DNA of 64,000 nucleotides from Schaalia dentiphila ATCC 17982 (GTDB taxonomy: Bacteria > Actinomycetota > Actinomycetes > Actinomycetales > Actinomycetaceae): contig NZ_DS264586.1 in assembly GCF_000154225.1 (NCBI RefSeq), positions 1,208,527-1,272,526 on the forward strand, in the 5' to 3' direction. Positions 25,962 to 41,915 of the stretch are shown here, one piece after another. Numbering within the stretch: the first letter of the stretch is position 1; each line of letters opens with the position of its first letter. Made by a program: the position numbers and the translations under genes. The notes beneath the pieces are model-generated. The model was not told where the DNA came from. It searched no databases and was given only the letters and a program-made list of their open reading frames with translations.

Positions 25962-26321
25962 ATGACGAATCCCTACGTGCCGCTGCTCATCATGTCGGCA
26001 GCTGCCCTCGTACTAGCCTTCGGAGGCCTGGTCGCCTCCGCGATCCTGGGCCCCACCAAGAAGTCCAAGACCAAGGCCGACAACTACGAGTGCGGTATCC
26101 AGCCGACCAGCGCTCACCTCACCGAGGGTCGCTTCCCGGTGCGCTACTACCTGGTTGCCATGACGTTCATCATCTTCGACATCGAAGTTGTGTTCATGTA
26201 CCCGTGGGCCGTCAGCTTCAACCAGCTGGGCCTGTTCGGACTGGTCGTCATGATGAGCTTCCTGGTCACCCTCTGCGTCCCCTACGCCTACGAATGGCGA
26301 CGCGGCGGCCTGGACTACTGA
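25962..26321 (+). CDS. nuoA: NADH-quinone oxidoreductase subunit A
   Basis: 119-residue membrane subunit of Complex I with three transmembrane helices. Conserved NYECGIQPT and RYYLVAMTFIIFDIEVVFMYPW loops are present. GGGAGGAACG precedes the ATG. Confidence 0.96.
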   Translation: MTNPYVPLLIMSAAALVLAFGGLVASAILGPTKKSKTKADNYECGIQPTSAHLTEGRFPVRYYLVAMTFIIFDIEVVFMYPWAVSFNQLGLFGLVVMMSFLVTLCVPYAYEWRRGGLDY

Positions 26322-26343
26322 GATATAAGTAAGGAAAAGACAA

Positions 26344-26898
26344 GTGGGACTTGAAGAATCCTTGCCCGCGGGTATCGCGCTCACCAGCGTCGAAAAAGTC
26401 CTCGGGCTCGCACGCAAGTACAGCCAGTGGCCCGTCACCATGGGTCTGGCGTGCTGCGCCATCGAGATGATGGCCGCCGGTACCCCCCGTTTCGACATGG
26501 CGCGCTTCGGCCTCGAGGTCTTCCGTGCCTCGCCGCGTCACGCCGACATGATGATCGTGTCGGGCCGTGTCTCGCACAAGATGGCGCCCATCATCCGCCG
26601 CGTCTACGACTCGATGCCCGAACCTAAGTGGGTCATCTCCATGGGTGCGTGCGCGTCCTCCGGCGGCGTCTTCAACAACTACGCCGTCGTCCAGGGCTGC
26701 GACCACATCGTCCCCGTCGACGTCTACCTGCCCGGCTGCCCGCCCCGCCCCGAGGCCCTCATCCACGCGGTCCTCGTCCTGCGTGAGCAGATCGGCAAGG
26801 AACCCCTCGGCGTCCACCGCCGCGAGATCGCGCGCCGCGCCGAGCAGGCCGCCCTCGAGGCGACCCCCACCCACCAGATGAAGGGACTCCTCGCATGA
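26344..26898 (+). CDS. nuoB: NADH-quinone oxidoreductase subunit B
   Basis: 184 residues. Carries the terminal 4Fe-4S cluster N2 next to the quinone site, with ligands C37, C38, C103 and C132 ([27 protein letters not shown]). GTG start 22 bases after nuoA with AAGGAAAAG upstream. ATGA overlap with nuoC. Confidence 0.96.
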
Positions 26899-27632
26899 GC
26901 GACCTTTCCATCCCCGAGGACAACACGCCCGCCGAGGTCACCCAGGCCTCGTCGCAGCGCGGTTTCGCCCTCCCCGAGCCCATCGCCCACCGCGAGGGCC
27001 TCTTCGGCGCGGGCACCGACTCCTCCACCTCCGGCTTCTCCGGACTGGTCTCCGACTCCTTCCTGCCCGGCGAGGCCTCCCGCCCCTACGGCGGATGGTT
27101 CGACCAGGTCGTTGACGTCCTCGAAGAGCTCATCGTCGCCGATGGCCTTGAGGTCGCCGACGTCATCGAGAAGGTGACCGTCGACCGCGGACAGCTCGGC
27201 ATCTTCATCGCCCGCGAGTACATCGCGCGCGTCGCCAAGTACCTGCGCGACGACGCGGACCTGCGCTTCGAAATGTGCCTGGGGACCAACGGCGCGCACT
27301 ACCCCCTCGACAAGGGGCGCGAGCTGCACGCCATCTACCCCCTGTACTCGATCACGCACAACCGCATGATCCGCCTCGAGGTCACGTGCCCCGACGAGGA
27401 CCCCCGCATCCCCTCCATCGTCTCCGTCTACCCCGGAAACGACTGGCAGGAGCGCGAGACCTGGGATCTCATCGGCATCGTCTTCACCGGGCACCCCTCG
27501 CTCACGCGCACCGCGATGCCCGACGACTGGGTCGGACACCCCCAGCGCAAGGACTACCCGCTGGGCGGCATCCCCGTCGAATTCAAGGGAGCCGTCACTG
27601 CCTCCGCCGACGTTCGTAGGAGTGTGAACTGA
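26895..27632 (+). CDS. nuoC: NADH-quinone oxidoreductase subunit C
   Basis: 245 residues, peripheral-arm subunit. The core has [28 protein letters not shown] and the closing [18 protein letters not shown] and RKDYPLGG signature. The first 60 residues are an actinobacterial-type extension. Overlaps both neighbours. Confidence 0.95.
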
Positions 27633-28978
27633 TGACCACCGCCTTCCACGCGCCCGCCGGCGCGACCGACCTGCCCATCGAGGACATCCCCGAGGTCCTC
27701 GCCCAGGGCGGCGACTGGGACGACGTCCTGCACGAGATCGAGGCCATCACCTCCGAGCGCATCGTCGTCAACCTGGGTCCGGTTCACCCCGCGACCCACG
27801 GCGTTCTGCGTCTGATCCTCGAGCTCGACGGCGAGAAGGTCCGCGAGACCCGCGTCGACACCGGCTACCTGCACACCGGCATCGAGAAGAACATGGAGTA
27901 CCGCACGTGGGCCCAGGGCGTCGCATACTGCACGCGCATGGACTACGTCGCTCCCTTCTTCCAGGAGGCCGCGTACTGCCTCGGCGTCGAGAAGCTCCTC
28001 GGCATCGAAGAGGACATTCCCGAGCGCGCCTCCCTGATCCGCATCCTCATGATGGAGCTGTGCCGCATCGCCTCGCACCTGGTCGCCATCGGTTCGACCG
28101 GTAACGAAATGGGCGCCACGACGATCATGACGATCGGCTTCCGCGCCCGCGAGGAAATCCTGCGCATCTTCGAGCGCATCACCGGCCTGCGCATGAACCA
28201 CGAGTACATCCGCCCCGGCGGCGTCGTGCAGGACATCGGCGAGGGCACCTCGGACTACATCCGCGACCGCCTGCGCCGCGCCCGCAAGGACATCGGCGAG
28301 CTCCAGGACATCCTCGTGGAGAACCCGATCTTCAAGAAGCGTCTGTGCGACGTGGCCGTCATGCCGCTGAGCGGTCTCATGGCCCTCGGCACCACCGGCC
28401 CCGGCGTGCGCGCCGCCGGCCTGCCCCTGGACCTGCGCAAGAGCCAGCCCTACTGCGGCTACGAAAACTTCGAGTTCGACGTTCCCACCCGCGACAAGTC
28501 GGACGTCTACAACCGCACGATGATTCGCTTCGACGAGTGCTACGAGTCGATGCGCATCATCTGGCAGGTTCTCGCCAAGCTGGACCAGTGCGAGGGCGCG
28601 CCCACCATGGTCGCCGACCCCGAAATCGCCTGGCCCGCGCGCCTGGCGGTCGGCACCGACGGCCAGGGCAACTCGGCCGAGCACGTCCGCGAAATCATGG
28701 GGGAGTCCATGGAGTCCCTCATCCACCACTTCAAGCTCGTCACGGAGGGCTTCCACGTGCCCGCCGGCCAGGTCTACCAGACCGTCGAGCACGCGAAGGG
28801 CATCCTGGGCGTTCACCTCGTCTCCGACGGTGGCACGCGCCCGTTCCGTGCGCACTTCCGCGACCCCTCCTACGCCAACCTGCAAGCGCTGGCCATGATG
28901 ACCGAGGGCGGCCAGCTGGCTGACGTGGTCGTCGCACTGGCAGCTATCGACCCCGTTCTCGGAGGCGTTGACCGATGA
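27632..28978 (+). CDS. nuoD: NADH-quinone oxidoreductase subunit D
   Basis: 448 residues, quinone-site subunit related to the hydrogenase large subunit. [28 protein letters not shown] and the C-terminal DPVLGGVDR are diagnostic. The ATG overlaps the nuoC stop by one base, and its own stop overlaps nuoE. Confidence 0.96.
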
Positions 28979-29685
28979 GCTACACACCCGACACCCTGGC
29001 ACGCCTGCAGGCGGATGCCACGCAGATTATCGCCCGCTACCCGGACGGTCACTCGCGCTCCGCGCTGCTGCCGATGCTGCACCTGATCCAGTCCGTCGAC
29101 GGCTACGTCAGCCCGGACGGCATCGACTTCATCTCGGCCACGCTGGACCTGCCCCGCGCAGAGATCAGCGCCGTCGCGACCTTCTACACGCAGTACAAGC
29201 GTCACCCCACCGGTGAGTACCTGGTGGGCGTGTGCACGAACGCGCTGTGCGCCGTCATGGGCGGCGACGAGATCTGGGAAAAGGTCTCCGAGAAGGTCGG
29301 CGTCGGAAGCGACGAGACCAGCGAAGACGGCAAGATCACGCTCGAGCGCATCGAGTGCAACGCGGCGTGCGATTACGCGCCCGTCGTCATGGTCAACTGG
29401 GAATTCTTCGACAACCAGAGCCCCGAGTCGGCGCTGGCGATGATCGATGACATCCAGGCCGGCCGCGACATCCACCCGACGCGCGGCCCCATCGTGGCCC
29501 CCACGTTCAAGGAGAACGAGCGCGTCCTGGCCGGCTTCCTGGACGGCCACGAGAATGAAGGCCCCTCCGCGGGTCGCGCCACCCTGCTGGGCCGCGAGAT
29601 CGCCGCAGCGAACGGCTGGACCGAGCCGGTTGCCGTCGAGGTCGCCGACGAGGCCACTGACACGAAGGGAGAAGAGGCGAAGTGA
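28975..29685 (+). CDS. nuoE: NADH-quinone oxidoreductase subunit E
   Basis: 236 residues with a thioredoxin-like fold holding a 2Fe-2S cluster: CTNALC and [10 protein letters not shown] supply the cysteines. The C-terminal roughly 70 residues are longer than in E. coli, as in other actinobacteria. ATGA overlap with nuoD and GTGA overlap with nuoF. Confidence 0.95.
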
Positions 29686-30986
29686 GCACCGCATACGTTG
29701 CGCCCGGACCGCTGACCCCGATCCTCACCAACGGGTGGGGAGAGGAGCGTTCCTGGACGCTGGACTCCTACCGGAGCCGCGGAGGCTACCAGGGCCTCGA
29801 AAAGGCCCGCACCATGGAGCCCGCCGACATCGTGCAGGCTGTCAAGGACTCCGGTCTGCGAGGCCGTGGTGGCGCAGGCTTCCCGTCCGGCCTCAAGTGG
29901 TCCTTCCTGCCCCCGGCCGACGGTGGCCCCCGCTACCTCGTGGTGAACGCCGACGAGTCCGAGCCGGGCACCTGCAAGGACATTCCGCTCATCATGGGCA
30001 ACCCGCACGTCCTCATTGAGGGCATTGCGATCACGTCGCGCGCCATCGGCTGCGACCACGCGTTCGTCTACCTGCGCGGCGAGGTCACCCACGTGTACCG
30101 CCGCCTGCTGGAGGCCGTGCGCGAGGCGACCGAGGCCGGCGTGCTCGGCGACCTGCGCATCACCGCTCACGCGGGCGCCGGCGCCTACATCTGCGGTGAG
30201 GAGACGGCTCTGCTGGACTCCCTCGAGGGACGCCGAGGCCACCCGCGCCTCAAGCCCCCGTTCCCCGCGGTCGCCGGACTGTACGCCCGTCCCACGGTCG
30301 TCAACAACGTCGAGACCATCGCTCAGGTGGCGGGTATCTTCCGCAACTCGCCCGAGTGGTTCGCCTCGATGGGCACCGAAAAATCCAAGGGCCACGGCAT
30401 CTTCTCCGTGTCGGGTCACGTGAACAACCCCGGCCAGTTCGAGGCTCCCTTCGGTATCACGATGCGCGAGCTCATCGAGATGGCGGGCGGCATCCGCGAC
30501 GGCCACAAGCTGAAGTTCTGGACCCCCGGCGGCTCCTCCACCCCGATCTTCACCGAAGACGAGCTGGACACGCCCCTCGACTACGAGTCCGTGGGTGCGG
30601 CCGGTTCGATGCTGGGTACGCGTGCCCTTCAGGTGTTCGACGAGACCGTCTCGGTGGTCCGCGTCATCACCCGCTGGTCCGAGTTCTACCAGCACGAGTC
30701 CTGCGGTAAGTGCACGCCCTGTCGCGAAGGCACCTACTGGATGAAGCAAATCATGCTGCGTCTCGAGCGAGGCGAGGGCCGCCCCGGCGACGTCGACCTG
30801 CTCGACGAGATCGCACACAACATCGCGGGCCGTAGCTTCTGCCCGCTCGGCGACGCCGCAGCAACCCCGATCATGTCGGGCATCAAGCGCTTCCGCGACG
30901 AGTTCGAGGCCGGCCTCACCACGCCCGCCCGCGAGCTTTTCCCCTACGAGGCGTCCGCTAACTACGCGCGAGGAGGTGGCCGATGA
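29682..30986 (+). CDS. nuoF: NADH-quinone oxidoreductase subunit F
   Basis: 434 residues. Binds NADH and FMN and cluster N3. GLRGRGGAGFPSGLKW is the nucleotide loop, VVNADESEPGTCKD the FMN site, and SCGKCTPCREGT the 4Fe-4S ligands. GTG start overlapping nuoE. Confidence 0.96.
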   Translation: MSTAYVAPGPLTPILTNGWGEERSWTLDSYRSRGGYQGLEKARTMEPADIVQAVKDSGLRGRGGAGFPSGLKWSFLPPADGGPRYLVVNADESEPGTCKDIPLIMGNPHVLIEGIAITSRAIGCDHAFVYLRGEVTHVYRRLLEAVREATEAGVLGDLRITAHAGAGAYICGEETALLDSLEGRRGHPRLKPPFPAVAGLYARPTVVNNVETIAQVAGIFRNSPEWFASMGTEKSKGHGIFSVSGHVNNPGQFEAPFGITMRELIEMAGGIRDGHKLKFWTPGGSSTPIFTEDELDTPLDYESVGAAGSMLGTRALQVFDETVSVVRVITRWSEFYQHESCGKCTPCREGTYWMKQIMLRLERGEGRPGDVDLLDEIAHNIAGRSFCPLGDAAATPIMSGIKRFRDEFEAGLTTPARELFPYEASANYARGGGR

Positions 30987-33544
30987 GCGACGCACCCAAC
31001 ATGATCGACGTCACCATCGACGACGTTCAGGTTTCTGTCCCCCAGGGCACGCTCGTGATCCGCGCGGCCGAGCAGGCCGGCATCCGGATCCCGCGTTTCT
31101 GTGACCACCCGCTGCTGGCCCCGGTGGCCGCATGCCGCCAGTGCCTCGTGGAGGTCGGCATGCCCGACCGCAACACGGGCGAGCTGCGCTTCATGCCCAA
31201 GCCCCAGCCCTCGTGTGCGCAGACCGTCACCCCGGGCATGGTCGTCAAGACCCAGCACACCTCCGAGGTGATCGACCGCGCTCAGCGCGGCGTCATGGAG
31301 TTCCTGCTCATCAACCACCCGCTGGACTGCCCGGTCTGTGACAAGGGCGGCGAGTGCCCCCTGCAGAACCAGGCACTGACGGAGGGTCGCGGCAAGTCCC
31401 GCTTCACCGACGCCAAGCGCACGTTCAAGAAGCCGCTGCGCCTGACCTCTCAGATCCTGCTGGATCGCGAGCGCTGCATCCTGTGCCAGCGCTGCGTGCG
31501 CTTCGGCAAGGAGATCTCGGGCGATGTGTTCATGGACCTGCAGGGTCGTGGCGGCGGCACCGCCCCCACGGAGCACCACTACTTCATGGGCGAGCAGGTC
31601 GGCGGCTTCGACTCGACCACGCTCGACTTCTTTGATCCGAAGGCCAAGGAGGCCTCGACCTCGTCCCTGTCGTCCCCGTACGGCACGGATGCGATTGTCG
31701 GTTCCATCAACGAGGGTGAGCTTTCCGTCGCCGAGCGCGACGTGTCGGGCCGAGCCTTCGCGTCCTACTTCTCGGGCAACATCATCCAGATCTGCCCGGT
31801 CGGTGCCCTGACCGCAGCGTCCTACCGCTTCCGTGCGCGTCCCTTCGACCTCGTGTCGACGGCGTCCGTGACCGAGCACGACGCGTCGGGCAGCGCGATC
31901 CGCCAGGACGTGCGCCGCGGTGAGGTCGTGCGTCGCATGAGCGGCAACGACCCCGAGGTCAACGAAGAGTGGATCACCGACAAGGACCGCTTCGCCTTCG
32001 AATGGGACAAGGTCGATCGCCTGACCACCCCGCTCGTGCGCGAGGACGGCAAGCTGGTTCCCACCTCCTGGTCCGACGCGCTTGACCGCGTCCGTGTGGG
32101 CCTCGAGCAGGCGGGTTCGTCCGTGGGCTTCCTGCCCGGCGGCCACCTCACCTTCGAGGATGCCTGGGCTTGGTCGAAGTTCGCGCGCACCGTCGTGGGC
32201 TCCGACTCGATCGACTTCCGTTCGCGTCGCTCCAGCGAAGAAGAGCGTTCCTTCCTGGCCTCCTACGTGGCGGGCTCCGGCCTCGAGACCACGTACGCGG
32301 ACCTGGAGAGCGCCGGCCAGGTGCTGCTGGTCGCCCTCGAGCCCGAGGACGAGTGTGGCGCCATGTTCCTGCGCCTGCGTAAGGCCACGCGTAAGTCGGG
32401 CCTGAAGGTCGCGACCGTCGCCCCCTTCACCTCCGCGGGTTCGCGCAAGATGAAGGCTCGCCTCCTGCACGCCGCCCCCGGCTCCGAGCCGGGCGTCGTG
32501 GACGCGATCGCGGCAGGCGGTGCCTACGCCGACGTGGCTGAGGCGCTGTCGGGCGGCATCATCCTCGTGGGCGAGCGCGCCGCGCAGACCCCCGGCCTGC
32601 TCTCCTCCGTCGTCGCTCTTGCCGAGCGCACGGGCGCCCGCCTCGCGTGGGTCCCGCGCCGCGCGGGTGACCGCGCCGCCATCGAGGCGGGCCTCCTTCC
32701 GGGTCTGCTTCCCTTCGGCCGTGGCCTTGACGAGGCCGGCGCACAGTCCCTGGGTTGGGGCGAGCTTCCCGGCCGTGGCCTCGACGCCGAGCAGATGATC
32801 GAGGCCGCTGCCTCCGGTGAGCTCCAGGCTCTGGTCGTCGGCGGCGTTGACGTCCGCGACTTCGACGAACCCGCCGCCGTGCGCGAAGCCCTCGAAGAGG
32901 TTCCCTTCCTCGTGTCGCTTGAGGTTCGCGCCTCGGAGATCACCGACCGCGCGGACGTCGTCCTGCCGGTCGCTCCCGCGGTCGAGAAGAACGGCACCTA
33001 CATTAACTGGGAGGGCCGCCTGCGCCCCTTCGGCCAGGCCCGCTCGGCGACGTCCCTCACGGACCGCGACGTGCTCGTGCGCCTCACCGAGGAGTTCGAC
33101 CTCGACCTGGGCATCACCGCCCTGGCCGACCTCTACGAGGAAGTCAACCCCCTCATGGAGTGGGACGGCGCCCCGCAGGAGTTCACGCCGGTGTCGGCGC
33201 AGGCTCCCGCTGCAGCCGGTAAGGGTCAGGTTGTTCTGGCCTCCCACAAGCCCATGATCGACGCGGGTCGTCTCCAGGATGGCGCCCCGTGGCTGGCCGG
33301 TTCGGCCCGCCGCCCCGTCCTTCTGGCCTCGGCCGCGACGCTGGCCGCCGCTGGCATTGCCCCCGGCGCCGACGCGACGCTCGAAACCGAGCGCGGAACG
33401 ATCACCCTCCCGGCCGCCATCGCGGACCTGCCCGACTCCGTCGCGTGGGTGCCCGAGTGTTCGACCGGCTCCGTTATTCACGAAAACCTCGGCGGTGCCG
33501 GCACCGTCGCAACCCTGCGCGCCACGCAGGAGGTGGCACGATGA
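30983..33544 (+). CDS. nuoG: NADH-quinone oxidoreductase subunit G
   Basis: 853 residues, the large iron-sulfur subunit. An N-terminal 2Fe-2S ferredoxin domain (RFCDHPLLAPVAACRQC) and a His/Cys cluster (HPLDCPVCDKGGECPLQ) come first. ERCILCQRCVRFGKEI and a molybdopterin oxidoreductase-like remainder follow. ATGA overlaps at both ends. Confidence 0.95.
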   Translation: MSDAPNMIDVTIDDVQVSVPQGTLVIRAAEQAGIRIPRFCDHPLLAPVAACRQCLVEVGMPDRNTGELRFMPKPQPSCAQTVTPGMVVKTQHTSEVIDRAQRGVMEFLLINHPLDCPVCDKGGECPLQNQALTEGRGKSRFTDAKRTFKKPLRLTSQILLDRERCILCQRCVRFGKEISGDVFMDLQGRGGGTAPTEHHYFMGEQVGGFDSTTLDFFDPKAKEASTSSLSSPYGTDAIVGSINEGELSVAERDVSGRAFASYFSGNIIQICPVGALTAASYRFRARPFDLVSTASVTEHDASGSAIRQDVRRGEVVRRMSGNDPEVNEEWITDKDRFAFEWDKVDRLTTPLVREDGKLVPTSWSDALDRVRVGLEQAGSSVGFLPGGHLTFEDAWAWSKFARTVVGSDSIDFRSRRSSEEERSFLASYVAGSGLETTYADLESAGQVLLVALEPEDECGAMFLRLRKATRKSGLKVATVAPFTSAGSRKMKARLLHAAPGSEPGVVDAIAAGGAYADVAEALSGGIILVGERAAQTPGLLSSVVALAERTGARLAWVPRRAGDRAAIEAGLLPGLLPFGRGLDEAGAQSLGWGELPGRGLDAEQMIEAAASGELQALVVGGVDVRDFDEPAAVREALEEVPFLVSLEVRASEITDRADVVLPVAPAVEKNGTYINWEGRLRPFGQARSATSLTDRDVLVRLTEEFDLDLGITALADLYEEVNPLMEWDGAPQEFTPVSAQAPAAAGKGQVVLASHKPMIDAGRLQDGAPWLAGSARRPVLLASAATLAAAGIAPGADATLETERGTITLPAAIADLPDSVAWVPECSTGSVIHENLGGAGTVATLRATQEVAR

Positions 33545-34869
33545 CACTCGTACCCTTCGCAGTCCCGGAGTACACCGCCGCGGACTTTAGCCAGGAAACC
33601 TGGTGGCTCAGCCTCATCAAGGCTGTGTTCACCATCGTGTTCCTGATCGCCAACGTGCTGCTCGCCCTGTGGGTCGAGCGCCGAGGCCTGGGCCGCATGC
33701 AGACGCGTCCCGGCCCGAACGTCGCGGGCCCCCTCGGCCTGTTCCAGGCGTTCGCCGACGCAGGCAAGCTCCTTTTCAAGGAGGACATGTGGACCCGTCG
33801 GGCTGAGAGGTTCCTATACTTCCTGGCCCCCGCGATCGCGGCGTTCGCTGCGTTCAGCGTCTACGCGGTTATCCCGATGGGCCCGAACGTGAAGATCTTC
33901 GGCCACTCCACGCCGCTGCAGCTGGCCGACATGCCCGTCGCCTCCCTGTACATCCTGGCGATCGCATCGCTGGGCCTGTACGGCATCGTCCTGGGTGGCT
34001 GGTCGACTCGCTCGACCCTGCCGCTGTACGGCGCCGTGCGTTCCTCCGCGCAGGTCATCTCCTACGAACTGGCCATGGGCCTGTCCCTCGTGAGTGTGTT
34101 CCTCATGTCGGGCTCCATGTCCACCTCGCAGATCGTCGCAGCCCAGGGGCAGTTCTGGTGGGCATTCACCCTGTTCCCTGCGTTCGTCATCTACTGCATC
34201 AGCGCCGTCGGTGAAGTCAACCGTCTTCCCTTCGACCTTCCCGAGGCCGAAGGCGAGATCGTCGCCGGTCACATGACCGAGTACTCGTCGATGAAGTTCG
34301 GCTGGTACTACCTGTCCGAGTACGTCAATATGCTCAACGTCTCGGCCGTGGCCACCACGATGTTCTTCGGCGGATGGCACGCCCCGTGGCCGCTGTCCCA
34401 CGTTGAGTTCCTCAACTCCGGCTGGTGGGGCATGCTCTGGTTCTTCCTCAAGATCTGGTTCTTCATGGTCCTGATGATCTGGACGCGCGCCACGCTGTTG
34501 CGCTTCCGCTACGACCAGTTCATGAATCTCGGCTGGAAGCGCCTTATGCCCATCGCCCTGGGTTGGCTCGTGCTCGTCGCCCTGGTGCGTGGCATCACCC
34601 AGTTCGTGCAGCTGCCCAACCACGTCCTCTTCGGTGCCGTCGGCGTCCTCTTCCTGATTGCCCTCGCGATCATCTGGCTCACCGACAAGTCCGAGCCCGA
34701 GGAGATCCCCGCCTCCGAGCGCGAATACACCGGCTTCGAGGACGGATTCCCCGTTCCGCCGCTGCCCGGACAGACCCCCGTTGCCTCGCCGCGAGGCCTC
34801 GCCACCATTGAGGGCGAGCTGGCCCCGGCCGCGGCAATCGACAGCCCGAAGGAGTCCACCGATGAGTGA
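33541..34869 (+). CDS. nuoH: NADH-quinone oxidoreductase subunit H
   Basis: 442-residue membrane subunit connecting both arms at the quinone channel. [19 protein letters not shown] and [20 protein letters not shown] are family hallmarks. The start at 33541 overlaps the nuoG stop as ATGA; a long upstream open frame is rejected. A hydrophilic C-terminal tail of about 70 residues is an extension beyond the E. coli protein. Its stop overlaps nuoI by eight bases. Confidence 0.95.
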
Positions 34870-35512
34870 GAAGACCACCGACGAGGAAATGCTCTTCGAG
34901 CATGACCCCAAGGGTGCGTTCGCCCAGTTCGTCGCGCCCATGGCCGGCTATGGAGTCACCATGGCTTCCTTCTTCCGGCCCACCGTGACCGAGCAGTACC
35001 CGCGCGAACCCGCGCGCGTCATGCCCCGCTTCCACGGTCGTCACCAGCTCAACCGCTACGACGACGGCCTGGAAAAGTGCGTCGGCTGCGAGCTGTGCGC
35101 CTGGGCGTGCCCCGCTGACGCGATCTTCGTCGAGGCCGCCTCGAACACGCCCGAGGAGCAGTATTCTGCGGGCGAGCGTTACGGCCGCGTCTACCAGATC
35201 AACTACCTGCGCTGCATCTTCTGCGGCATGTGCATTGAGGCGTGCCCCACGCGCGCCCTGACGATGACGAATGACTTCGAAATCGCCAAGTACACCCGCG
35301 AGGACGACATCTACTAGAAGGAAGACCTCCTGGTCCCGCTCTCCGATGGCATGCTCGCAGCGCCCCACCCCATGGTCGAGGGTAAGAACGACATCGACTA
35401 CTACCGCGGGGAAGTCACCGGCCCCACCGCCGCCCAGGTTGACTGGGTCGCGAGCCGCCGCCCCGACGACCCCTCCCTCAAGACGGTACGAGTCGCCGAG
35501 GAGGCACACTGA
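34862..35512 (+). CDS. nuoI: NADH-quinone oxidoreductase subunit I, interrupted by an in-frame TAG
   Basis: Ferredoxin-like subunit with clusters N6a and N6b: [13 protein letters not shown] and [13 protein letters not shown]. Translation from ATG 34862 meets TAG at 35315-35317, giving 151 residues. Beyond it the same frame stays open for 64 codons (KEDLLVPL onward, ending TVRVAEEAH) to TGA at 35510-35512, which overlaps the nuoJ start as ATGA. Related actinobacterial NuoI proteins continue past this point, and the tail keeps G/C-ending codons. The full gene is therefore 216 codons with a nonsense codon. A GAG-to-TAG change would explain it. The cluster ligands lie before the stop, so a truncated subunit might still work. 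Confidence 0.9.
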
Positions 35513-36489
35513 TGAACCTGTCCAACGGTTGGCCCATGATGGGGTCAACGGGGGAGATCATCCTCTTCGCATGCACGGCCATCCTCATGGTCGCCTGCGC
35601 TCTGGGTGTCCTCTTCTTCAAGAAGGCCGCGCACTCGGTCATCTGCATGGTCGGCGTCATGCTCGGCCTGGCAGTCCTGTACATCGCGAATAGCGCCCCC
35701 TTCCTGGGCGTCGCGCAGATCGTCGTGTACACCGGCGCGATCATGATGCTGTTCCTCTTCGTCATCATGCTGATCGGCATCGGCACCTCCGACGACTACG
35801 CCCGCCAGAGCCGCGGTGCGATCGTTGCGGCGGTGCTCGGTGGTCTTGGCCTGATCGTCATCGTCACGACCGCGATCCTCAAGGCCGTGCCCGCCCCGCA
35901 CAAGCCCGTTGAGGTTGACCCCTACTCCAACCAGCCGATCACCGACCTGGCGATCACGCTGTTCCAGGAGCACTGGCTGAGCATGGAGCTCGCCGGCGGC
36001 CTGCTGATCACGGCCGCCGTCGGCGCGATGCTGCTGACCCACTCTGATCGCCTCACCCCGAAGGCCGACCAGTTCGAGACAGCCCGCAACAAGATGCGCG
36101 CGTTCGCCGAGAAGGGCGCTCGCATCGGCCAGCTGCCCGCCCCCGGTGTCTACGCCCAGTCGAACGCGGCCGACGTGCCCGCCGTCTCCGGCGAGACCCT
36201 CGGCCCGGTCGAGGAGTCGGTGCCCCGAGTCCTGCGCGTGCGCGGCCTCACCCGCACGATCGGCGAGGTCACCCCGGAGGTCTCCGAGCAGCTCGCCCTC
36301 GCGCGCACCGATACCGCGGCGACCGACGCGATCGACGAGTCGCCCTACACCATCGGGCGCACGCCCGACGTCCCCCGCTCCGGCGCCTTCGGCATGCCCG
36401 GCGCGGACGCGCCCACCGGTCTGGCCCAGCCCCGGGCCCGCAAGGCGCGCACCACCACCCCCATTGAGAAGAAGGAGGAGAGCAAGTGA
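35512..36489 (+). CDS. nuoJ: NADH-quinone oxidoreductase subunit J
   Basis: 325-residue membrane subunit with five transmembrane helices in the first half. The conserved [19 protein letters not shown] helix is present. A hydrophilic C-terminal extension of about 140 residues makes it longer than the roughly 180-residue E. coli subunit. Its start depends on the nuoI end (ATGA), so the nuoI amber codon may lower its translation. Confidence 0.94.
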
Positions 36490-36785
36490 GCCTCGCCTGG
36501 TACCTCATCCTTGCGGGTGTGCTGTTCGCCATCGGTGCGACCACGGTCCTCGTGCGCCGCAGCGCGGTCATCGCGCTCATGGGCGTCGAAATGATGCTCA
36601 ACGCCGCGAACCTCGTCCTCGTGACGTTTGCGCGCATTAACTCCAACGTTGACGGCGAGATCATGGCGTTCTTTGTCATGGTCGTCGCGGCCGCCGAAGT
36701 TGTCGTTGGCCTGTCGATCATCGTGTCCATCTATCGTTCGCGCTCGACCACGAGCATGGACGATCTCAATCTGCTGAAGAACTGA
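36486..36785 (+). CDS. nuoK: NADH-quinone oxidoreductase subunit K
   Basis: 99 residues, three transmembrane helices, with the conserved [16 protein letters not shown] glutamate helix and a second glutamate in [14 protein letters not shown] start overlapping the nuoJ stop. Confidence 0.95.
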
Positions 36786-36800
36786 GGGAGGACGTAACTC

Positions 36801-38777
36801 ATGACCACCTTCATTTCCCCGCAGACTCTCACCGTCTACGATACGGTCGCGCCCACCGGAGCCGCTGCCTACGCGTGGCTGCTCATTCTCATCCCGCTGG
36901 CCAGCGCAGGCCTGCTCCTGCTGCTGGGCCGCGCCTCGGACAAGTGGGGCCACCTGCTGGCAACCCTCGCCTCCTGGTCCACCTTCGTGGTCGGCGCGCT
37001 GATCGCCGCCCAGATGTGGAACGCCCCCGTGGAGGCGCGCCGCTTCGGCCAGACGCTGTTCACCTGGATCCCCGCCGGTGACTTCACCGTCGACTTCGGT
37101 CTCCTCGTGGACCCGCTGTCGATCACGTTCGTCATCCTGGTGACCTTCGTCGGTTCGCTCATCCACGTGTACGCGATCGCCTACATGGAGCACGACGCGG
37201 CCCGCCGCCGTTTCTTCGCCTACCTGAACTTCTTCATCGCGGCGATGCTGACCCTGGTGCTCGCGGACTCCTACGCCGGCCTCTTCGCCGGTTGGGAAGG
37301 CGTGGGCCTGGCGTCCTACCTGCTGATCGGCTTCTGGAACCACGTGCCCGCATACGCGGTCGCAGCCAAGAAGGCGTTCGTCATGAACCGTGTCGGTGAC
37401 ATGGGCATGCTGATCGCCATGATGGCGATGGTTGCGTCCTTCCACTCGGTGTCCTTCTCCGAGGTTTCCGCCAAGGTTGGCTCGATCCCCACGGCGTCTG
37501 CGACCGTCATCGGCATCTTCCTGCTGGTCGCCGCCTGTGGTAAGTCCGCTCAGTTCCCGCTGCAGGCGTGGCTGGGCGACGCCATGGCTGGACCGACCCC
37601 CGTCTCCGCGCTCATTCACGCGGCCACGATGGTCACCGCCGGCGTCTACCTGATCGTCCGTTCCGGCGATGTCTTCATGGCCGCCCCCATCGCGGCGACC
37701 GCCGTCGCCATCATCGGCGCGATCACGCTCCTCTTCGGCGCGATCGTCGGTTGCGCGAAGGACGACATGAAGAAGGTCCTCGCCGCCTCCACCATGAGCC
37801 AGATCGGCTACATGATGCTGGGTGCGGGCCTGGGCCCCATCGGCTGGGCGTTCTCGATCTTCCACCTCTTCACCCACGGCTTCTTCAAGGCCCTCATGTT
37901 CCTCGGCGCCGGTTCCGTCATGCACGGCATGGGCGACCAGGTGAACATGCGTCGCTTCGGTGCCCTGCGCGGCGCCATGAAGGTCACGTGGCTGACGTTC
38001 ATGATGGGTTGGCTCGCCATCCTCGGCGTTCCTCCGTTCTCCGGCTACTGGTCGAAGGACAAGATCATCGAGGCCGCCTTCAGCGCCGACAGCTTCGGCG
38101 GTAACACTGCTCTGTGGGCTGGCTGGGTCTACGGTCCCATCGCGATGATCGGTGCGGGCATCACCGCGTTCTACATGTCGCGCCTCTTCTTCATGACGTT
38201 CCACGGCAAGGCCCGCTGGACCACCGAGGCCGAGGGCGCGCCCGTGCACCCGCACGAGTCCGGCCCCCTCATGACGATCCCGATGATCATCCTCGCCATC
38301 GGCGCGGTCGCCCTCGGTGGCGCCCTCTCCGTGGGGAACATCTTCACCGAGTGGCTGGTCCCCTCGATCGGTCACGTCACGCACGGCGACCCCGTCCTTA
38401 ACGAGTACGTCATTCAGGGAGCCACCCTCGCCCTCGTCATCCTCGGCGCGGCTGTCGCGTGGATGAAGTACGGACGCGACGAGGTTCCCACCTCCGTCCC
38501 CGCAGGCAACGCCCTGACCGAGGCCGCACGCCGCGACCTCTACCAGGACACCGTCAACGAGACCCTGTTCATGATGCCCGCCAAGGGCCTCGTCACCGTC
38601 GCGACCGTTGGCGATGCGAGCGCCATCGACGGTGCACTGAACGGCCTCGGCTCCGGCTCGCAGCTGCTCGGACGCATCGTCGGCATCACCCAGAACGGCC
38701 TCGTGCGCACGTACGCCGCCTACATCCTGGGTGGCGTCATCCTCGCCCTGGCCATCGTCCTCGGATTCAGGCTGTAA
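36801..38777 (+). CDS. nuoL: NADH-quinone oxidoreductase subunit L
   Basis: 658-residue proton-pumping antiporter-like subunit. FAGWEGVGLASYLLIGFW, CGKSAQFPLQAWLGDAM and GPTPVSALIHAATMVTAG are diagnostic. AGGGAGGACG precedes the ATG, 15 bases after nuoK. Confidence 0.96.
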   Translation: MTTFISPQTLTVYDTVAPTGAAAYAWLLILIPLASAGLLLLLGRASDKWGHLLATLASWSTFVVGALIAAQMWNAPVEARRFGQTLFTWIPAGDFTVDFGLLVDPLSITFVILVTFVGSLIHVYAIAYMEHDAARRRFFAYLNFFIAAMLTLVLADSYAGLFAGWEGVGLASYLLIGFWNHVPAYAVAAKKAFVMNRVGDMGMLIAMMAMVASFHSVSFSEVSAKVGSIPTASATVIGIFLLVAACGKSAQFPLQAWLGDAMAGPTPVSALIHAATMVTAGVYLIVRSGDVFMAAPIAATAVAIIGAITLLFGAIVGCAKDDMKKVLAASTMSQIGYMMLGAGLGPIGWAFSIFHLFTHGFFKALMFLGAGSVMHGMGDQVNMRRFGALRGAMKVTWLTFMMGWLAILGVPPFSGYWSKDKIIEAAFSADSFGGNTALWAGWVYGPIAMIGAGITAFYMSRLFFMTFHGKARWTTEAEGAPVHPHESGPLMTIPMIILAIGAVALGGALSVGNIFTEWLVPSIGHVTHGDPVLNEYVIQGATLALVILGAAVAWMKYGRDEVPTSVPAGNALTEAARRDLYQDTVNETLFMMPAKGLVTVATVGDASAIDGALNGLGSGSQLLGRIVGITQNGLVRTYAAYILGGVILALAIVLGFRL

Positions 38778-38790
38778 GGGGTACACGACA

Positions 38791-40350
38791 ATGGAAAGTG
38801 CAATGATTGCTGCTAACTTCCCGTGGCTGTCCGTCCTCGTGGCCATTCCGGCTGCGGGCGCGGCCCTCCTCGGCTTCGTCCCGCCCCTGAGGCGCGCCGC
38901 CGGGCGCGTCGTCGCCCTGGTGGTCTCCCTCGTCGAGCTCGCGCTCGGCGTGTACGTGGCCGCCTCCGTGTTCGACTGGTCCGCCCCGGCCTCGTACCAG
39001 GTGTACGAGTCCCACCTGTGGATCCCCCAGATCGGCATCACCTGGTCCCTCGGCGTCACCGCGCTGGGCCTCGTCATGATCCTCCTGGCGATCGGCCTCG
39101 TGCCGCTCGTGCTGATTGCGGGTTGGGACGAGGACGATGCCGCGGACTGCGGCGCCTACCCGGCGCTCGTCCTGGCCCTCCAGGCGTTCATGGTCGTCAT
39201 CTTCGCGGCCTACGATCTGACGGTCTTCTACTTCGCCTTTGAGGCGATGCTCGTGCCGCTCTACCTCATGATCGGACGCTACGGCGTCGGTGACGAGGCC
39301 GCGCGTCACAAGGCCGCCATGAAGTTCCTGCTGTACTCGCTGTTCGGTGGGCTGGTGATGCTCGGTGGCATCCTCTACCTGTGGGCGAAGGGTTCGCAGG
39401 CGTTGCAGGACGTGTCGACGTTCTTCCGCATTGACACGCTCGCCCAGATCCTGCCGAGCGCCCCGCTCGCCATTCAGATGGTCGTCTTCGTGACCTTCAT
39501 GGTTGCCTTCGCGATCAAGGCTCCCATGGTCCCGGTGCACACGTGGCTGCCCGACACGGCCGCCGTCGCCCGCCCCGGCACCTCGGTGCTGCTCGTCGGC
39601 GTCCTGGACAAGATCGGCACCTTCGGCATGATCGCCCTGTGCCTGCAGCTGACCCCCGGCGCGGCCGTTTCCGCGAAGTGGGTCATGTGCGTGCTCGCCG
39701 TCATCTCCATCCTGTGGGGCGGCCTGGCGGCGAACGGTCAGAACGACATCATGCGCCTCGTGTCCTACACCTCGGTGTCGCACTTTGGCTTTATGGTCCT
39801 GGGCATTTTCATCGGCTCGCAGATCGCCCTCGTTGGAGCCATGTTCTACATGGTCGCCCACGGCGTCTCGATCGCCGCGATGTTCCTGCTCTCCGGATGG
39901 CTGTCGCGCCGCGGTGGCACGCAGGACATGCGCGAGTACGTGGGCATGCAGCGCGTGACGCCGGTCCTCGCGGGCCTGTGGCTCGTGTCCGGCCTCGCGT
40001 CCATCGCGCTGCCCGGCCTGTCCGGCTTCGTCCCCGAGTACCTCGTGCTCATGGGCACATGGTCGGTCAGCGGTCCGCTGGCGATCTTCGCGGTTCTCGG
40101 TGTCGTCATCGCCGCCCTCTACGTGCTCATGCCCTACCAGCGTGTCTTCACCGGTGCGCCGGGCAAGGGCAAGGAGGAGCTGGCTGACCTGGCGACGCGT
40201 GAACGCGGCGTCATGGTGCCGCTCGTGGCCGCGATGCTCATCCTTGGTATCTGGTCGGCGCCTCTCGTGAGCGCCCTGACCCCGGTTGCTTCAGACCTCG
40301 ACCTGACCAACTCGCAGGTCCCGGCCGCCGCTGAAGGGAGCGCACAGTGA
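38791..40350 (+). CDS. nuoM: NADH-quinone oxidoreductase subunit M
   Basis: 519-residue antiporter-like subunit. FYFAFEAMLVPLYLMIGRYG and KAPMVPVHTWLPD are typical. ATG 38791 follows AAGGGG by nine bases; ATG 38803 is an alternative. Upstream in-frame codons overlap nuoL and are rejected. Confidence 0.94.
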   Translation: MESAMIAANFPWLSVLVAIPAAGAALLGFVPPLRRAAGRVVALVVSLVELALGVYVAASVFDWSAPASYQVYESHLWIPQIGITWSLGVTALGLVMILLAIGLVPLVLIAGWDEDDAADCGAYPALVLALQAFMVVIFAAYDLTVFYFAFEAMLVPLYLMIGRYGVGDEAARHKAAMKFLLYSLFGGLVMLGGILYLWAKGSQALQDVSTFFRIDTLAQILPSAPLAIQMVVFVTFMVAFAIKAPMVPVHTWLPDTAAVARPGTSVLLVGVLDKIGTFGMIALCLQLTPGAAVSAKWVMCVLAVISILWGGLAANGQNDIMRLVSYTSVSHFGFMVLGIFIGSQIALVGAMFYMVAHGVSIAAMFLLSGWLSRRGGTQDMREYVGMQRVTPVLAGLWLVSGLASIALPGLSGFVPEYLVLMGTWSVSGPLAIFAVLGVVIAALYVLMPYQRVFTGAPGKGKEELADLATRERGVMVPLVAAMLILGIWSAPLVSALTPVASDLDLTNSQVPAAAEGSAQ

Positions 40351-41915
40351 ACGTTCTACCCATGGCTAACTTCCAGGCCCCCGAGGTTCACTGGGTGAGC
40401 CTCGCGCCCATCCTCATCGTGCTGGGCGGCGCGGTCCTCGGCGTCCTCGTCGAGGCCTTCGCCCCCGCGAAGGCTCGTCGCCCCCTCGTGATCGCCCTGT
40501 CGATCCTGGCGACCGCCGGCGCGTGCGTCATGCTCGCCCTGCGCTGGGTCCCCGTCCTGGAGACCCCGGTGACGCTGGGGGAGTACATGGAGGATCCGCT
40601 GACGATTGCCGCTCAGTTGGCACTCGCCGTCATCGGCTTCTTCGCCGTCCTCGTGATGGCCGACCGCACCTCCGTCGGTGACGGCGCGTTCGCCGGCCAG
40701 CCGTCGGATCGTCCGGACTCGGCCGCCGAGGAGCTGTCGGAGCGCAAGGGCTACCAGCGCTCCGAGATCTTCCCGCTGACCCTGTTCTCGCTGGGCGGCA
40801 TGATGATCTTCCCCGCCGCGGATAACTTCGTGACGCTGTTCGTGGCCCTCGAGGTGATGTCGCTGCCCCTGTACATCATGGCTGCTACGGCCCGCCGTCG
40901 TCGCCAGCTGTCCTACGAGTCGGCTCTCAAGTACTTCGTGCTCGGCGCCTTCTCTTCGGGCTTCCTGCTGATGGGCTCCGCCTTCCTCTTCGGCTTCTCC
41001 AACTCGCTGCGCATCTCTGCGCTGGCCGAGGCCATCTCCACTCACACGAACATGGAGTGGATGGTCCTCGTGGGCGTGTTCTGCGTGATGGTGGGCCTGC
41101 TGTTCAAGGTGGGCGCTGCCCCCTTCCACGCGTGGACCCCCGACGTCTACACGGGCGCCCCGACCCCGGTGACGGGCTTCATGGCCGCCGCCGTGAAGAT
41201 CGCGGCCTTCGCTGCGATGATCCGCTTCTACACGGTCGCCGCCGCCTACCTGCAGTGGGACTTCCTGTACATCTTCACGGCCGTGGTGGTCCTGACGATC
41301 CTCGTCGGTACCTTCGCCGGCCTCGTGCAGGATGACGTCAAGCGCATGCTGGCCTACTCCTCGATCGCCCACGCGGGCTTCATCCTGATGGGTATCCTCG
41401 CGATCCAGAAGGGCGGCACGGGCCATGTGTTGTTCTACACGCTCGGTTACGGCCTGGCGACGGTCGGTGCCTTCGGCGTGGTCACGCTGGTGCGCGGCCG
41501 CGACGCGGACGGCAACGTCCTGGGCGAGGCGACGAGCCTGCGCAAATGGGCGGGTATCGGCCGCACCAACCCGTGGATCGCGGGCGCGATGCTGATCTTC
41601 CTGCTGTCGTTCGCGGGCATCCCGCTGACGGGCGGTTTCATTGGTAAGTTCGTGATTTTCTCGGACGCGATCAAGGCCGGCATCGGCTGGCTCGCGATCG
41701 TCGGCCTCGTGGCCTCGGCGATCACCGCGTTCTACTACTTCCGCCTCGTGCGCCTGATGTTCTTCACCGAGCCCGGTGAGGAGTCCGTTGTCGTGAAGTC
41801 GGAGGGCCTGTCCGCTCTGGCGATCGCCGTGTGCGCGATTGGGACGCTCGCCCTGGGCGTCTTCCCCGGTCCCGTGTTGAGTCTGCTCGAAAAGATCGTC
41901 ATACTGATCCCGTGA
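40347..41915 (+). CDS. nuoN: NADH-quinone oxidoreductase subunit N
   Basis: 522-residue antiporter-like subunit. FVALEVMSLPLYIMAA, GAAPFHAWTPDVYTGAPTPV and MLAYSSIAHAGFILMG are conserved. GTG start overlapping nuoM (GTGA); ATG 40362 is a less coupled option. A polar loop near residues 110-135 looks lineage-specific. The stop overlaps the polyprenyl synthase start. Confidence 0.95.
   Translation: MNVLPMANFQAPEVHWVSLAPILIVLGGAVLGVLVEAFAPAKARRPLVIALSILATAGACVMLALRWVPVLETPVTLGEYMEDPLTIAAQLALAVIGFFAVLVMADRTSVGDGAFAGQPSDRPDSAAEELSERKGYQRSEIFPLTLFSLGGMMIFPAADNFVTLFVALEVMSLPLYIMAATARRRRQLSYESALKYFVLGAFSSGFLLMGSAFLFGFSNSLRISALAEAISTHTNMEWMVLVGVFCVMVGLLFKVGAAPFHAWTPDVYTGAPTPVTGFMAAAVKIAAFAAMIRFYTVAAAYLQWDFLYIFTAVVVLTILVGTFAGLVQDDVKRMLAYSSIAHAGFILMGILAIQKGGTGHVLFYTLGYGLATVGAFGVVTLVRGRDADGNVLGEATSLRKWAGIGRTNPWIAGAMLIFLLSFAGIPLTGGFIGKFVIFSDAIKAGIGWLAIVGLVASAITAFYYFRLVRLMFFTEPGEESVVVKSEGLSALAIAVCAIGTLALGVFPGPVLSLLEKIVILIP

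Follow-up and report, generated by a model that had tools for sequence, protein, structure and literature searches.

The protein studied here belongs to the same family as NuoI, Nqo9 and TYKY (NDUFS8), as judged by the models NF004537 and TIGR01971, and carries both of the four-cysteine motifs of that family. It differs from these proteins in that, in this strain, it stops at residue 151. Single-strain nonsense alleles, or young pseudogenes, offer the nearest genetic parallel: like the allele described below, they are private to one of the genomes compared and leave the rest of the gene intact. Programmed readthrough and stop-codon reassignment resemble it as well, in that an open frame runs on past a stop codon. 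Laboratory evolution of E. coli yields nuo mutations, making the complex I genes a target of mutation in culture (PMC8795404); the main text of that study does not mention nuoI, and the cases it describes differ from the present one, being point mutations in membrane subunits that did not abolish the complex. We found no literature linking the odontolytic species with nuoI, and neither nuo nor NADH occurs in the main text of a study that applied Tn-seq to S. odontolytica XH001 (PMC12369343).

The window, by which we mean the whole stretch of 64,000 nucleotides analysed here from Schaalia dentiphila ATCC 17982, contains a nuo operon in which the nuoI frame, opening with the ATG at 34862, meets an in-frame TAG at codon 152. 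The 151 residues upstream of this codon include two CxxCxxCxxxCP motifs, and on their own they score 232.9 bits against NCBIfam NF004537 (cut-off 163) and 138.2 bits against TIGR01971 (cut-off 113.05). A sequence-only reading of this DNA had claimed both a truncation of nuoI at 151 residues and a preserved frame beyond it, and both claims hold. The TAG is followed by 64 sense codons and then a TGA; the 64 residues that these codons encode are those of the NuoI tail in the same-species sister genome G005, and there is no nucleotide difference between the two genomes 3′ of the stop. Third-position GC is 0.86 after the TAG and 0.88 before it. The openness of the 64 codons is unremarkable by itself, because its chance at this GC is about 0.24 (from base composition alone); it is homology that identifies them as the old nuoI frame. 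An in-frame CTG at 35330, with AAGGAA upstream, is a possible restart, and the in-frame ATGs at 35351 and 35372, both 3′ of the TAG, have no evident Shine-Dalgarno sequence. The features of the locus are collected in Table 1. The names of the nuo genes other than nuoI are those that we presume from the standard order of the operon, and the family-model scan within the operon covered nuoI only.

Table 1 Features of the nuo operon around the in-frame TAG (positions in the window).
Feature	Position	Strand	Remarks
nuoA to nuoH	25962..34869	+	all open
nuoI, predicted translated part	34862..35317	+	151 codons, then TAG; includes the two [4Fe-4S] four-cysteine motifs; NCBIfam NF004537
In-frame TAG, nuoI codon 152	35315..35317	+	sense codon in 109/109 homologous loci compared
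nuoI remainder past the TAG	35318..35512	+	64 codons and TGA; DNA identical to sister genome G005
AGGAGG, Shine-Dalgarno of nuoJ	35499..35504	+	seven bases 5′ of the ATG; same block in closest congeners
nuoJ	35512..36489	+	open; overlaps the old nuoI stop as TGATG
nuoK to nuoN	36486..41915	+	all open

We compared codon 152 across 109 homologous loci, comprising 29 from congeners and 80 from a named genome collection that gave more than 80 matches; at least five genomes are common to the two sets, and five congeners that encode NuoI, and for which no locus was fetched, stand outside this comparison. All 109 alignments span the column and each extends to residue 183 or further. None has a stop there: the residue is glutamate in 71 loci, threonine in 31, glutamine, valine and aspartate in two each, and glycine in one. 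The sequence-only reading had expected GAG in close relatives, and glutamate is indeed what most of them encode, but glutamine stands in one congener and valine in two. The idea that relatives naturally end NuoI at this position is refuted for the loci compared, and we therefore rejected residue 151 as a natural end of the protein. NuoI is encoded in 35 of 35 genomes searched in the genus, this one included, and a search of 396 genomes across the order found a match in 203. Among the 150 matches listed from that search, 148 contain no stop, one is the TAG described here, and one (G150) has a late TGA, which we rejected as a comparable early stop since its alignment is free of stops up to query residue 197. 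Because no equivalent stop occurs in the 109 loci or in the listed matches from the order, the TAG is, on these alignments, found in this genome alone of those compared.

The C-terminal tail is common to all of the compared loci and would be missing here if the TAG terminates translation. The mean share of the commonest residue is 0.83 over columns 30–151, 0.69 over columns 152–189 and 0.42 over columns 190–216, and K153, L157, P168, H169, G174, Y180, Y181 and G183 are present in at least 97% of the 109 loci. From column 152 onward NuoI has at least 41 residues in the 101 of these loci that were measured. Solved bacterial chains of NuoI, among them 8e9g, 2fug and 7awt, likewise extend past residue 151; the solved chain closest to the full-length NuoI of G005 is 8e9g_I (E 6.8e-76). 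Since the tail is conserved and the solved chains are longer, a truncated NuoI is predicted to be unstable or to fail to assemble.

This genome and G005 share 98.9% identity over a 32-kb block that includes the nuo region, and within nuoI the two genomes differ by four synonymous changes and the stop. When codon differences across the 14 nuo genes were polarised by three congeners (50 were ambiguous), the branch leading to this strain carried 40 synonymous changes, 12 nonsynonymous changes and one stop, against 50, 15 and none on the G005 branch. Among four genomes, synonymous and nonsynonymous singletons numbered 18 and 4 here, 18 and 2 in G005, 37 and 4 in G026, and 52 and 12 in G020. Of the 1128 nonsense changes that a single step could produce in 13 of the sister nuo genes, nuoH being left out, 761 give TAG. 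The description of an otherwise intact Complex I operon stands, as all nuo genes other than nuoI are open. Given this and the similar branch counts, we found no support for decay of the whole operon, and the sequence gives no clear sign of it. Purifying selection acts on the nuo genes; because of this, and because NuoI is encoded in every genome searched in the genus, loss of complex I is not a genus trend, a point that speaks against a genuine loss here.

Across ten genomes, five of 136 complete copies of nuo genes were flagged, one of them the nuoI described here (four G019 copies that run past a contig end were left out of the 136). The nuoG of G017 was flagged for a stop one codon ahead of its own end, and the nuoL of G020 was flagged, yet it aligns over its full length. 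The other two are nuoM copies of congeners, each apparently broken. In G020 the gene (L218:13116-14682) lies in two pieces, with a one-base shift near codon 203 that is either a true frameshift or an error of the assembly; in G001 the apparent break lies beside a single assembly N (L224:13223).

At the junction with nuoJ the sequence reads TGATG, a one-base overlap between the TGA at 35510–35512 and the ATG at 35512–35514, and not the ATGA overlap that had been proposed; ATGA does occur in some more distant congeners, among the 18 of 30 loci whose junctions were listed. The suggestion that the TAG uncouples nuoJ translation is weakened by the full Shine-Dalgarno block listed in Table 1. Because nuoJ has this block at its own start, its translation need not depend on that of nuoI and should be uncoupled in part at most.

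The quality of the assembly, which comprises 2,393,958 bases in two contigs, bears directly on whether the stop is real. In the window, 50 of 57 picked G005 ORFs match at more than 80%, and 49 of these 50 are without an internal stop, nuoI being the sole interruption. We extended this check by comparing 384 kb from this genome with 388 kb from G005. There, 190 of 299 G005 ORFs matched at more than 85%, 109 had no match, and 12 were interrupted by a stop within the match. Among these 12, nuoI alone has its stop inside or after a recognised domain. When the eleven others were compared with Pfam, six had the stop 5′ of the domain, likely because the start codon had been chosen too far upstream, and five had no Pfam domain; in four of these five, other ORFs occupy the same place or the GC by codon position is unusual. 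Neither of the two partial matches listed, after five at the ends of stretches were dropped, has a frameshift inside a recognised domain: one has no domain, and the domain of the other lies inside the matched part. In the reverse direction, 182 ORFs of this genome matched G005, and three of them have a stop there; one of the three contains a Pfam domain, and of its two stops the first lies ahead of that domain. Over the 384 kb compared, the assembly looks sound. The fifth of the domain-less ORFs, the 275-residue G005 ORF at L202:19039-19866, also lacks a competing ORF; its counterpart in this genome (L172:10243-11067) has a stop at position 213 and may be another privately interrupted gene.

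With moderate confidence, we favour the explanation that a single base change, very recent and confined to this strain, created a nonsense codon in nuoI. Its main competitor is a base-call or assembly error, in which case the living strain would encode an amino acid at this codon and make a normal NuoI; we consider this the lesser possibility, albeit one to be taken seriously. The stop is present in one assembly only, the rest of nuoI is undamaged so that one wrong base would be enough, and the nuoM genes of G001 and G020 are examples of apparent breaks in further assemblies from the genus. The four-genome singletons given above, with four nonsynonymous here and two in G005, also lean slightly this way. 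Set against them are the lack of any sign of poor assembly in the comparison with the sister genome and the nonsynonymous share on this strain's own branch, which is not raised (12 of 52 changes, against 15 of 65 in G005). It is thus more likely that the nonsense change is real than that it is an error. Of the options that the sequence-only reading had listed, a recent mutation and a sequence error are accordingly the ones favoured, and stop-codon readthrough is left unsupported. Readthrough by a near-cognate tRNA, yielding useful amounts of full-length NuoI, would account for the intact downstream frame and for a tail conserved in relatives, and the base after the TAG is A and not U, +4U being reported to reduce readthrough (PMC5289835). 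We nevertheless judge it highly unlikely. A family-model search found 48 tRNAs and, among them, none with a CTA anticodon; the gene for RF1 (prfA) is open, with no internal stop (443.2 bits against a cut-off of 423.25); and TAG is an ordinary stop in the window, where it terminates nine of 48 genes conserved in G005 (52 ORFs picked, less four without a full match) and interrupts none besides nuoI. Apart from nuoI, none of the 12 ORFs flagged in the 384 kb has its stop inside a recognised domain, although the domain-less ORF at L202:19039-19866 may be a gene.

Nor does a stimulatory hairpin stand out: the 90 nt past the TAG fold worse than the mean of shuffled sequences (z +1.38, at one length). 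Basal leakiness of stop codons gives only traces of extended protein, so leakiness of this order would yield traces of NuoI. That the amber codon, leaking through a near-cognate tRNA, sets the level of full-length NuoI and of complex I is scarcely credible to us. With the stop unconserved, no suppressor tRNA found, RF1 present and no structure, we rejected readthrough or recoding as the leading idea, and on the same points, together with the use of TAG as a stop elsewhere, the locus differs from programmed readthrough and stop-codon reassignment. An extremely improbable alternative is that 151 residues of NuoI are enough, complex I being functional even when the tail is missing. The shortened protein does keep both cysteine motifs and scores above the NF004537 cut-off; the conservation of residues 152–189, the length of the solved chains and the fact that every one of the 109 alignments continues to residue 183 or beyond all speak against it. 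The nonsense mutation that we favour is a recent, private change of an ordinary kind, and we see no difference between it and other young pseudogenes beyond the gene affected.

If the nonsense mutation is real, it probably disables complex I. Translation would terminate at residue 151, so that NuoI would keep its iron-sulphur motifs and lose the conserved 65-residue tail. Assembly of the shortened NuoI would be poor or would fail altogether, leaving this isolate with little or no complex I activity. Synthesis of NuoJ to NuoN could still start from nuoJ's own Shine-Dalgarno sequence. The genome encodes an open type II NADH dehydrogenase (NDH-2; best PDB match 9mqy, E 2.5e-169) and an open CydA, subunit I of cytochrome bd, and therefore NADH could be oxidised without complex I. 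In such a scheme electrons would pass from NADH through the type II enzyme to quinone and on to cytochrome bd, with fermentation in addition. Loss of complex I may be tolerated in culture because the genome also encodes the type II enzyme. A search of the genome for COX1 gave no match, in a search that matched only eight of 14 control genomes.

Either outcome, a real mutation or an error, leaves ideas on decoding or respiration unchanged. If the stop is a base-call error, the genome record needs correcting. If it is real, this strain would be an oral actinomycete with a naturally occurring complex I mutation, which would matter for its use as a reference strain and for metabolic models.
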